From assembly GCA_021325515.1 (NCBI GenBank), contig JAJPHC010000041.1, forward strand, positions 1 through 64,000: a stretch of 64,000 bases of DNA, in the 5' to 3' direction. Position numbers and translations under genes: made by a program. Source of the stretch: Acidobacteriota bacterium (GTDB lineage: Bacteria > Acidobacteriota > Thermoanaerobaculia > Gp7-AA8). This document shows, piece after piece, positions 43,087 through 48,085 of the stretch; position 1 is the stretch's first letter; every line of letters begins with the position of its first letter. The notes below the pieces were generated by a model, which saw nothing but the letters and a program-made list of their open reading frames with translations, had not been told where the DNA came from and did not search any database.

Positions 43087-43731
43087 ATGTCCAAGCCGCT
43101 TCCATTCCGGCATATCGCCGTCGAGGGACCGATCGGTGTCGGGAAGACTTCGCTCGTCACGCTGCTCGCGAAGCGGTTTCGAGGAACGAAGATTCTGGAA
43201 GATGCCGACAACCCGTTTCTCGACGACTTCTACAAGGACAAGCGTGGCGCGGCGTTCCGGACGCAGCTCTTCTTTCTTCTGTCGCGTTTCGATCAGCAGC
43301 GGAAGATCGCGCAGCGCGACCTCTTCACCGAGCTGATCCTCGCCGACTACTCGTTTCCGAAGGACAAGATCTTCGCCTATCTGACGCTCGAGGATTCCGA
43401 GCTGATGATTTACAACCGGCTCTACGATCTTCTCTATGAATCGGTCCCGAAGCCGGACCTGGTGATTTACCTTCAGGGCAATCTTGATACACTCTTGAAG
43501 CGCATCAAAAAGCGTGGCCGTAACTACGAGAAATCGATCTCGCCGCAGTATTTGCAGGAGATCAGCGAGGCGTACTCCCACTACTTTTACCGGTACGACG
43601 AGACGCCGTTGCTGGTCGTGAATACGAACGAGATCGACTTCGTGGCGCGGCCTGAGCATTTCGATCAGCTCGTGGAGCAGATTCGAAACGCTCAAAAGGG
43701 AACCCAATACTACGTACCGCTTGGATCCTGA
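43087..43731 (+). CDS. deoxynucleoside kinase
   Basis: A 214-aa enzyme of the dCK/dGK/TK2 family that phosphorylates salvaged deoxynucleosides. GPIGVGKTS is the P-loop at about 14-22, FFLLSRFDQQ and ADYSFPKDKIFA surround the substrate site, and KRIKKRGRNYEK is the Arg-rich lid. No signal. It begins only 16 nt after the heptamer array and ends 26 nt before panB, so it may be transcribed into the pantothenate genes. Base specificity is not readable. Confidence 0.92.
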   Translation: MSKPLPFRHIAVEGPIGVGKTSLVTLLAKRFRGTKILEDADNPFLDDFYKDKRGAAFRTQLFFLLSRFDQQRKIAQRDLFTELILADYSFPKDKIFAYLTLEDSELMIYNRLYDLLYESVPKPDLVIYLQGNLDTLLKRIKKRGRNYEKSISPQYLQEISEAYSHYFYRYDETPLLVVNTNEIDFVARPEHFDQLVEQIRNAQKGTQYYVPLGS

Positions 43732-43757: not shown

Positions 43758-44633
43758 ATGGCTGCACAGAAGATTACTGTCCCGGCGATCCGCGCGATGA
43801 AGCAGACGCAGCGGATCGGGATGATCACCGCGTACGACTACCCGAGTGCGAAGCTGGCCGATGCGGCCGGCGCCGACATCATCCTCGTCGGCGATTCGCT
43901 CGGCATGGTCATTCTTGGATATCCCGACACGCTGAGCGTGACGGTCGATGACATGCTGCACCACACCCGCGCTGCGGCGCGCGGCGCCTCGCGATCTCTG
44001 ATCGTCGGCGACATGCCCTACATGTCGTACCACGTGTCGGTCGAAGAGTCCGTTCGCAATGCGGGACTCTTCGTGCAGGCGGGCGCGCATGCAGTGAAGA
44101 TCGAAGGCGGCAAGCCGTCGCGCATCCGCGTCATCGAAGCGGTGCTCGATGCGGAGATCCCGGTGATGGGCCACATCGGGCTGACGCCGCAATCGGTCAA
44201 CGCGCTCGGCGGGTTCAAGGTGCAGGGCAAGGGCGCCGATGACGCGCGCCGCCTGATCGACGAAGCAGCAGCGCTGGAGCAGGCCGGCTGCTTTGCGCTG
44301 GTGCTGGAGTGTGTGCCTTCCGAGCTCGCGTCGCTGATCACGGAGCGGATCTCGATTCCGACGATCGGCATCGGCGCCGGCATCCACTGCGACGGACAGG
44401 TCCTCGTCTATCACGACCTCCTCGGCCTCTACGACGGGCACAAGCCGAAGTTCGTGCGGCGGTACGCGCAGATCGGCGCCGACATTCAGGCGGCGATCGA
44501 GCGCTATCTCGCCGATGTGCGCGAAGCGCGATTCCCCGACGATCAGACGGAAGCGTTTCACGTCGCGCTCGATGACGAGCTGCGCGAGCTGTACGGCGGC
44601 GGCGTCGTGATCGAAATGCCGAAGGCGAAGTGA
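43758..44633 (+). CDS. panB: 3-methyl-2-oxobutanoate hydroxymethyltransferase
   Basis: A 291-aa enzyme for the first step to pantoate, using methylene-tetrahydrofolate. ITAYDYPSAKLADAAG, VGDSLGMVILGY (Mg2+ ligands), VKIEGG, PVMGHIGLTPQ and IGIGAGIHCDGQVLVYHD are clear family motifs. GGAGGGAAAG precedes the ATG. The stop overlaps a GTG in the next gene (GTGA), and panC proper begins 15 nt later. Confidence 0.97.
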   Translation: MAAQKITVPAIRAMKQTQRIGMITAYDYPSAKLADAAGADIILVGDSLGMVILGYPDTLSVTVDDMLHHTRAAARGASRSLIVGDMPYMSYHVSVEESVRNAGLFVQAGAHAVKIEGGKPSRIRVIEAVLDAEIPVMGHIGLTPQSVNALGGFKVQGKGADDARRLIDEAAALEQAGCFALVLECVPSELASLITERISIPTIGIGAGIHCDGQVLVYHDLLGLYDGHKPKFVRRYAQIGADIQAAIERYLADVREARFPDDQTEAFHVALDDELRELYGGGVVIEMPKAK

Positions 44634-44647
44634 CTCGGGCTCCAGGG

Positions 44648-45486
<839 letters not shown>

Positions 45487-45490
<4 letters not shown>

Positions 45491-45855
45491 TTCGCAATCT
45501 CGTACGGTCGGTCATTCACAACGCCACGGTGACGAACATCGCACATCAGTGGCCGGTCGCGCTGCGCCTCGATCCGGCGATCATGCGCGCCGCGGAGCTC
45601 GTGCCGCTCGAAATCGTCGAGATCATGAGCCTCTCGACGGTGACGCGATTTCGGACCTACGTGCAGCCCGGCGATCCCGGCGAGGTGACCGTGTTCACGA
45701 CGCACGAACATCACGTGTCCGCGGGCGACGTCGTCTCGATACTGACGTACTCGCAGTTGCACGCCGGGCAGTCGCTCGACCATCGCGCGAAACTCGTCAC
45801 GCTCGATCCCGGCAATCACGTGATCGCGATTGCCGATGCGACCACGCAATTCTGA
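45487..45855 (+). CDS. PanD-like protein lacking the self-cleavage site
   Basis: A 122-aa homologue of aspartate 1-decarboxylase, which supplies beta-alanine for PanC. It aligns without gaps over the first 65 residues with the E. coli enzyme. Arg54, Thr57 and Tyr58 are kept (TRFRTY), but Lys9 is Val, Gly24-Ser25 (the self-cleavage site that creates the pyruvoyl group) is Val-Ala, and the NGAAAH loop reads THEHHV. It cannot form a pyruvoyl cofactor by the known route. The frame is intact and the GTG start overlaps panC (GTGA). It may be inactive, regulatory or structurally supporting. Confidence 0.85.
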
Positions 45856-48085
45856 TCTCGCGGCCGCGGCGCTCTTCCTCGCTCTCAGCGTCGTGATGAC
45901 GTGGCCGCTTGCGCGGCACCTGTCGCGCGCCGTCTCCGACTGGGGCGACCCGCTGTTGAATGCGTGGATTCTCGACTGGGATGTCTATGCCGCGACGCAT
46001 GCCGGCACGCGGCTCTTCGACGCGCCCGTCTTCTATCCGCATCACGACACGCTCGCGCTCTCCGAACATCTTTGCGGTCTCGCGGTCTTCGCTGCACCGA
46101 TGCGCTGGCTGGGCGCCGGCCCCATCACCGCCGCAAACATCCTCTGGATTCTCGGCTTCGCCTTCACAGGCTTCGGCACGTATGTCGCGGCGCGGATGCT
46201 CACCGGCTCGCGCGGTGCCGGAATCGTTGCCGGAGTGTTCGCCGCGTTCGTTCCGTGGCGATTCCTCCACATCACGCATCTGCAGATTGCATCGGGCGGC
46301 TGGCTGCCGCTGATGATCGCGGCTCTCTACTTCTTCGCGGCAAGTCCGACCTGGCGAAGAGCCGCGCTGTTCGGCGCCATCTACTTCATGAATGGCTGGA
46401 CGAACCTCCACTACTTCGCCTTCGGATCCGTCGTGATTGCGATGACGACGCCGATCATGCTGCGGCGCGACGCCCGCGCATATTTCAGGATCGCCGTCGC
46501 GACGATCGGCGCGCTCGTGCTGATGCTGCCGTTTCTGCTTCCTTATCGCGCCGCGATGAAGGAGTACCACATGCGCGAGGACATCAGCGAGACGCGCCTT
46601 TACTCCGCAAGGCCGGCCGACTGGCTGTATGTCACTTCCTGGAATCGCTTCTACGGACCGCTGCAGGATCAGAACGGGCCAGACGAGCCGGAGCGGCTTC
46701 TCTTTCCCGGATATCTCGGAGTGATGCTCGCCATGGGTGGCGTCGTCTGCGGACGCGGAACCGGCCGCGCGGCCGGCGTTCTCTGGACGCTCGCCGGCTT
46801 CCTCGGTTCTCTTGGTCTGAACGGCTGGTTCCATACCGCGCTGTTCAACGCGATTCCCGTTTTTCACGGCATCCGCGTGCCTGCGCGCTGGGCGGTCATC
46901 GCATACTTCGGCATCGCGTTGCTCGCGGCATTCGGCGCGAAGGCACTCGCCGGACGGATTCCATTCGCGCATGCCGTGCTCACCGTGATGCTTCTTCTCG
47001 AGCTTCGTGCTGCACCCTTGCCGCTGCAGCTCGGGCCCTCCAAGGCGCCGCCGGTTTACGCATGGCTGAGAGGTGCGGCGATTCACGGCGGAATCGAACA
47101 TCTGCCCGCCGGCGAAGCGAAGAGCGAGTTTCTCTACATGTTCCGCGAGACCGAGCACCACAAGCCGCAGATCAATGGAGGGGGAATCGAGTTGCCGCTC
47201 ACGAGTGCGATCGCGAAACTCGCGGAGGCGAGGCCGATCCCCGACGCGTTGATGGATCAGCTCGAGCGCGCGAACTGCAGTCTCGTCCTCGTGCATTCAC
47301 GCACGATGAGCGGCGGGCGCGATTTTCTCCGGCGGCAGTTGCAGAGCGGCAGGCTGGCGTTCGTCGCGCGTTTTCCGGACGGCGTGTTCGGCGATTACGT
47401 CTTCGCCGTGCGTCGCGTCGAGCCGCACATGCCCGCCGGAGATCCGAGCGTGGCACAACGCTTCGTCGAAGGGCTGGCCGACGTCAACACCAGCACGATC
47501 GAGTCGCTCATTCGTGCGGATCAAATGGACGGCATGAGGTCGCGTCCTGCATGGTCGGTGGCCGATCGGCATTTCATCGTTCCGATCGCAGCGTCGTTCC
47601 AGGGTGTGCCGCCTTCGAACTACACGACGGAGGCACGGCTGCGAGGAGCGGGAGCCAGCGTGACGCTCACGCTGTGGCCGCAGGGTCTGGTGCGCCGGTT
47701 GAGACTTGCGGACGACGGCGCCTCCTTCACCGATGTTCTCTACGACAACTTCGGCATCCTCGGTAGCGGCTGGATGGACATCGCTTCCGATCGCGCGATC
47801 GAAGTGTCGTTCGCGCTCGTCGATCGCGGGACGAACGGAGTGACACCGATCGCTGCTCTGCGCGGGATGCCTCCACGCGAGGTGCAGGTGCGTGATGCGC
47901 AGACTCTCTGGCTGCTGAACAGCACCGCGAGTCCTGTTGAAGCGAATGTGTGCGGCACTCTCGTGACGCTTCCGCCGCACACATTGCTGCAGCGCAGTGC
48001 CCTTCACGCGTGCCGTGTCAGCGGCGTGTATGCCTTCGGCTCGACGAAGCGCGCCGACGGAGTGACGGAATTCGAATGGCCGTAA
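45836..48085 (+). CDS. multi-pass membrane protein, GT-C glycosyltransferase-like
   Basis: A 749-aa protein with about 10-12 membrane segments in the first 410 residues and a large C-terminal soluble domain. After the first helix there is SDWGDPLLNAWILDWD, an acidic loop like those carrying the catalytic residues of GT-C enzymes using lipid-linked sugars; helices 2-4 also contain NGWTNLHYF. The C-terminus (about 560-749) is beta-rich and lacks known motifs. The ATG at 45836 overlaps the PanD-like gene by 20 nt. Exact substrate is unknown. Confidence 0.6.
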   Translation: MRPRNSDLAAAALFLALSVVMTWPLARHLSRAVSDWGDPLLNAWILDWDVYAATHAGTRLFDAPVFYPHHDTLALSEHLCGLAVFAAPMRWLGAGPITAANILWILGFAFTGFGTYVAARMLTGSRGAGIVAGVFAAFVPWRFLHITHLQIASGGWLPLMIAALYFFAASPTWRRAALFGAIYFMNGWTNLHYFAFGSVVIAMTTPIMLRRDARAYFRIAVATIGALVLMLPFLLPYRAAMKEYHMREDISETRLYSARPADWLYVTSWNRFYGPLQDQNGPDEPERLLFPGYLGVMLAMGGVVCGRGTGRAAGVLWTLAGFLGSLGLNGWFHTALFNAIPVFHGIRVPARWAVIAYFGIALLAAFGAKALAGRIPFAHAVLTVMLLLELRAAPLPLQLGPSKAPPVYAWLRGAAIHGGIEHLPAGEAKSEFLYMFRETEHHKPQINGGGIELPLTSAIAKLAEARPIPDALMDQLERANCSLVLVHSRTMSGGRDFLRRQLQSGRLAFVARFPDGVFGDYVFAVRRVEPHMPAGDPSVAQRFVEGLADVNTSTIESLIRADQMDGMRSRPAWSVADRHFIVPIAASFQGVPPSNYTTEARLRGAGASVTLTLWPQGLVRRLRLADDGASFTDVLYDNFGILGSGWMDIASDRAIEVSFALVDRGTNGVTPIAALRGMPPREVQVRDAQTLWLLNSTASPVEANVCGTLVTLPPHTLLQRSALHACRVSGVYAFGSTKRADGVTEFEWP

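Follow-up and report, generated by a model that had tools for sequence, protein, structure and literature searches.

PanD (PF02261/TIGR00223; E. coli structures 1ppy and 1aw8) is a decarboxylase that makes its own cofactor. Ser25 is converted to the pyruvoyl group; the backbone and side chain of the cleavage site are held in place by Asn72 and Thr57, and acidic ligands are bound by Lys9 and Arg54 (PMC3975893). The enzyme is a drug target (in Mycobacterium tuberculosis it is bound by pyrazinoic acid; PMC6969166). A PF02261 match is commonly taken as proof that a genome provides for the conversion of aspartate to beta-alanine. Where PanD activity is provided by other means, the described substitutes are PLP-dependent proteins, namely PanP of Vibrio fischeri, archaeal MfnA/TK1814 and DVU0867 (PMC10102598). 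Two kinds of accessory protein are also relevant. The AdoMetDC prozyme of trypanosomes is a catalytically dead paralogue that regulates a pyruvoyl enzyme (PMC5201418), and PanZ/PanM is a GNAT protein of the pantothenate pathway that acts on PanD (PMC4410942, PMC4537548).

The gene described here lies in the window, ie the whole 64,000-nucleotide stretch of Acidobacteriota DNA that was analysed, in the following surroundings.

43087 to 43731, + strand: deoxynucleoside kinase (dnk), the customary neighbour 5' of panB (PF01712, 1.1e-40; synteny).
43758 to 44633, + strand: panB, ketopantoate hydroxymethyltransferase (TIGR00222, 340 bits, cut-off 207.55).
44630 to 45490, + strand: panC, pantoate--beta-alanine ligase (TIGR00018, 298.9 bits, cut-off 212.75).
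45487 to 45855, + strand: PanD-like pseudoenzyme of 122 amino acids (PF02261, 5e-19; AlphaFold model similar to PanD structures; catalytic residues missing).
45836 to 48085, + strand: large protein, apparently a membrane protein, with no Pfam family; its 5' end overlaps the 3' end of the panD-like gene.

The equivalog scores of panB and panC are above their cut-offs, and both genes are ordinary. The GTG start of the panD-like frame overlaps the TGA of panC (GTGA), as was stated in an initial annotation, which took the two genes to be translationally coupled. The start of panC, also GTG, overlaps the panB stop in the same way. In genus g6 the variant gene does not overlap panC, and the gap between them exceeds 100 bases. 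The overlap with the 45836-48085 gene is about 20 bases, and partial homologues of that protein occur near panC in several relatives.

The window protein matches PF02261 over its full length (68.7 bits, cut-off 25), and the solved structures nearest to it by sequence are PanDs. An AlphaFold model, built from only 4 aligned rows, has a pLDDT of 79.5 and is assigned the PanD fold by Foldseek with a probability of 1.00 and a TM score of 0.77 to 4cs0; the best matches are structures of PanD zymogens and uncleaved mutants. By PF02261 score and by beta-barrel fold the protein is a PanD homologue, similar to PanD in length and in its position in the pan operon as well. It differs in its score with the PanD equivalog TIGR00223, 54.7 bits where the cut-off is 106, and in lacking the Gly24-Ser25 site, Lys9, Tyr22, Asn72 and Ile86. 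The alignment to E. coli PanD is free of gaps up to about residue 63, much as first described, and in it all of the replacements given in the initial annotation are seen (Lys9 to Val, Gly24-Ser25 to Val-Ala, and a different sequence in place of the NGAAAH loop), together with Trp for Tyr22. The altered positions are as follows.

45511 to 45513, + strand: codon 9, Val for the catalytic Lys9 (Val in 8/8 variants, Lys in 54/54 ordinary PanDs).
45550 to 45561, + strand: codons 22-25, Trp-Pro-Val-Ala for Tyr-Glu-Gly-Ser at the cleavage site (alignment).
45694 to 45714, + strand: codons 70-76, FTTHEHH aligned to the loop Asn72-Gly-Ala-Ala-Ala-His, which is shortened in three relatives.
45760 to 45783, + strand: codons 92-99, HxGQ(S/T)xxH motif (HAGQSLDH), found in 8/8 variants and in the catalytic PanD of a sister-family genome, G018.

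Eight variants of this type were compared residue by residue with 54 ordinary PanDs from Acidobacteriota. Lys9, Tyr22, Gly24 and Ile86 occur in all 54 ordinary proteins and in no variant, and Asn72 in 49 of the 54 and again in no variant. The remaining catalytic positions, invariant in the ordinary set, are kept unevenly in the variants: Ser25 in two of the eight, Arg54 in six (His in the other two), Thr57 in six, and Tyr58 in the window copy only. The persistence of Arg54, Thr57 and Tyr58, pointed out earlier, is therefore correct for the window copy, but in the clade as a whole these three do not survive as a conserved part of the active site. Residues of the fold (Val15, Thr16, Asp29, Glu42, Gly80, Asp81 and Asn110, window numbers) are present in all eight variants and all 54 ordinary PanDs. 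The replaced positions of the pocket are themselves fairly uniform among the variants, with Val9 in 8/8, Glu60 in 7/8, Trp58 in 6/8 and Ser/Thr84 in 7/8. Three variants have lost two or three residues just before positions 24-25, and position 25 alternates between Ala and Ser within one genus (G007, G008), behaviour unlike that of a catalytic residue. Judged from its sequence, the window protein cannot form a pyruvoyl group from Ser25, and the loss of the catalytic set across the clade supports the earlier statement that it is no pyruvoyl decarboxylase in the known way. The non-catalytic state of the variant is well supported; we infer that enzymatic activity is absent altogether.

The family to which the window belongs comprises 18 Acidobacteriota genomes, and PF02261 was matched in 10. 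Eight carry the variant (G000, G001, G002, G007, G008, G009, G015 and G017; 42-80 bits), two members of one genus (G004, G005) have an ordinary PanD at this locus (165-168 bits), and in the remaining eight panD is missing and unrelated sequence follows panC. Wherever the contig extends far enough, the variant is directly 3' of panC in the order dnk-panB-panC-panD, which is also the order for the ordinary PanDs of G004, G005 and the sister-family G018. Two of the genomes without panD have congeners with the variant (G003/G002 and G016/G017), which implies several losses of the variant and a dispensable function. Mapped on a dnk-panB-panC tree, the live, variant and absent states require at least 7 changes. 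Relocated variants were considered for the eight genomes without a match and rejected, the weak hit in G016 being a thymidylate-kinase-like frame and that in G013 a short frame without PanD features. The window genome (5.4 Mb, 99.8% complete) has no second PF02261 match, which answers the earlier proposal to look for another panD. Outside the family, ordinary PanDs are found in 70 of the 131 genomes that make up the rest of the class and no PF02261 match in the other 61, and PanD loss therefore looks common in the class. Low-scoring PF02261 matches fetched from elsewhere in the phylum were ordinary PanDs, with Gly-Ser and Lys9 wherever these were covered. A scan of GTDB contigs with a three-row variant alignment returned two family members and one PanD from Parcubacteria.

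In a PanD tree of 129 columns, the shortness of which makes its other forks weak, all eight variants group together as a single clade (100/100) with a long stem branch, and the ordinary PanD of G018 is its neighbour (94/78). The initial annotation asked whether a Val-Ala variant has a clade of its own; the window protein does belong to such a clade, but the Val-Ala pair does not define it, since positions 24-25 read V-A, V-S, L-A or A-A. The G018 protein retains every catalytic residue and is the only one of the 54 with both His92 and Gln95 of a motif (LHEGQxLxH) common to all variants. That combination supports vertical descent of the variant clade from what would have been a live PanD resembling the one in the sister family. 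A horizontal origin is unsupported, as the clade is sister to G018 and occupies the same locus. Nor need HxGQxxxH be a new active site, since a catalytic PanD has it too.

Within genus g6, the three pairwise comparisons give dN/dS values of 0.11, 0.19 and 0.10 for the variant and 0.10, 0.15 and 0.13 for panC; the ordinary PanD pair G004-G005 gives 0.08. The variant is under purifying selection in genus g6 and, with values so close to those of panC, is not decaying there. When the window copy is included in wider pairs, the ratio is 0.38-0.53 (panC, 0.27-0.42), and dS is then close to saturation. Twenty-seven columns do not vary among the other seven variants; the window copy agrees with them at 22, and at four of the remaining five its change is conservative (A to S, L to M, E to Q and T to S). 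It also has the longest branch in the variant clade (1.31), and taken with the five departures this means that constraint may be weaker in the window species. Constraint on this copy is probable, but at a lower level than in g6. Both marks of a pseudoenzyme, catalytic loss and purifying selection, are found, the selection having been measured in g6 and only roughly for the window lineage.

All 18 genomes of the family have panC, and beta-alanine is therefore needed. The PLP-dependent substitute suggested initially did not materialise: the window genome encodes four PF00282 proteins, which reach at best 145 bits against a PanP cut-off of 606 and at best 124 against an MfnA cut-off of 299. One PF00282 decarboxylase (L065 type) occurs in 15 of the 16 family genomes without a live PanD, counting a 41%-identical match in G011, and in neither of the two with one. 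Both of those belong to a single genus, and outside the family the decarboxylase is independent of PanD (21/70 vs 18/61, p = 1.0), so the pattern is not evidence and the protein was rejected as a PanD replacement. A plausible source is a putative reductive uracil-degradation cluster on contig C61 of the window genome (L199 2514-9999, G000:C61), which is predicted to yield beta-alanine. There, genes for an NCS1 permease, for a PreA-like subunit of dihydropyrimidine dehydrogenase (319 bits, cut-off 335), for a dihydropyrimidinase (642 bits, cut-off 393) and for a nitrilase-type hydrolase are grouped, with a methylmalonate-semialdehyde dehydrogenase (MMSDH) about 9 kb away. The hydrolase is beta-ureidopropionase-like. 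Its nearest solved structure is that of Drosophila CG3027, a beta-alanine synthase, and it is close to solved beta-ureidopropionases. The carbamoylase-type beta-ureidopropionase (TIGR01879) is absent from the genome; the nitrilase-type one adjoins the dihydropyrimidinase. Dihydropyrimidinase and hydrolase genes are near each other also in G005, G008, G013 and G017, and G005 has the pair alongside a live PanD. A reductive uracil route has been reported to feed beta-alanine into pantothenate in Rhizobium etli (PMC7142369). The C61 cluster also adjoins xanthine dehydrogenase genes and a chorismatase-like gene.

We consider the variant to be a pseudoenzyme derived from PanD and retained in the pantothenate operon as a scaffold or a regulatory partner, and give this reading a probability of roughly 0.6. 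The ancestor of most of the family would have had an ordinary pyruvoyl PanD, and one branch would have lost self-cleavage and catalysis, a loss that could be tolerated while beta-alanine came from elsewhere, most visibly from reductive uracil breakdown. The uncleaved barrel may then have been retained for a non-catalytic task, the likeliest being the binding of a partner or small ligand by which pantothenate synthesis is stabilised or regulated. PanC would be the first candidate for a partner because of the start/stop overlap in the window genome. Among the roles proposed initially, that of a regulator or partner subunit fits best, and such a role would suit the place of the gene in the panB-panC operon, noted initially and constant among the variants, and the selection upon it. 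A more specific version, in which the barrel has become a regulatory or ligand-sensing subunit coupled to PanC and the old pocket has been rebuilt as a putative binding site, is put forward tentatively.

The conserved pocket could instead be catalytic. Changes common to the variants and a retained fold would be expected if Glu60, Ser/Thr84 and Trp58, with His92, Gln95 and His99, ran some other small-molecule reaction, the enzyme of new type envisaged initially. That proposal has gained no positive evidence and seems unlikely. The loops around the pocket are of unequal length and missing from three of the variants, no new cofactor motif is seen, and His92, Gln95 and His99 are already present in the catalytic G018 PanD and so do not have to represent a newly made active site. 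A binding or regulatory role is more likely than new chemistry in the rebuilt pocket. A gene made superfluous and drifting to loss, carried along in its operon, would equally have no active site where beta-alanine is probably obtainable otherwise. Its repeated complete loss, even within genera, and the fast evolution of the window copy are what such decay predicts. The g6 ratios, equal to those of panC, contradict it, as do the open frames in all eight variants, the 22 invariant columns that persist across genera at 39-49% identity to the window copy, and pocket replacements that are conserved and not random. We regard simple decay as slightly less credible even than a new enzyme, though for the window species it is contradicted less firmly than for g6.

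That the protein continues to decarboxylate aspartate, with processing at a different residue or with a different cofactor, is very improbable. The setting in a panB-panC operon and the Arg54, Thr57 and Tyr58 of the window copy would suit it, but the Ala/Ser exchange at position 25 in the genus of G007 and G008, the invariable Val9, the His at position 54 in two variants and the confinement of Tyr58 to one, all at positions universal in ordinary PanDs, would not; nor would the loss of the gene from relatives that retain panB and panC. The initial annotation also allowed that a sequencing error might have created the unusual codons. Apart from the odd residues themselves nothing points to a sequencing or assembly error, and its probability is close to nil: seven other genomes show the same losses, which excludes both chance and sequencing error, and of the eight genomes concerned two are also represented in named public records.

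The retained pseudoenzyme would resemble the AdoMetDC prozyme in being a dead relative of a pyruvoyl decarboxylase under selection. The prozyme belongs to another pyruvoyl-enzyme family and has a live paralogue beside it, whereas the window genome has no live PanD, and any partner of the variant must therefore be another protein. Its putative role would be like that of PanZ/PanM, a regulatory protein unrelated to it in sequence, and it is not homologous to PanP, MfnA or DVU0867, the known replacements of PanD activity. PanDs and pseudoenzymes are known kinds, but in the open-access literature, to which the search was confined, no description was found of a natural non-cleaving PanD, nor of a cleavage-dead PanD under selection in a genome without a live paralogue. 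The PanD copy in this vitamin B5 operon probably has a so far undescribed, non-catalytic function. For this clade, a PF02261 score above the Pfam cut-off fails as proof of beta-alanine formation. The family offers a natural series at one locus, with panD live, dead but selected, or absent, and is suited to the study of how pseudoenzymes arise and are retained. If the proposal is true, a regulatory PanD barrel coupled to PanC would be a hitherto unknown control point in CoA synthesis.

Two further divergent PanD-like genes were encountered. In G096, of the same class but another family, a frame directly 3' of a dnk homologue (L175 3928-4302, G096:C274) is independently degenerate, without Lys9, His11, Gly-Ser or the NGAAA loop and with a very long branch (3.95); that genome also bears an ordinary PanD on another contig. 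G142 has an ordinary PanD and, elsewhere (L174 2671-2931 onwards, G142:C5), a divergent second copy with Gly-Ser and Lys9 intact and an NGGGA loop.
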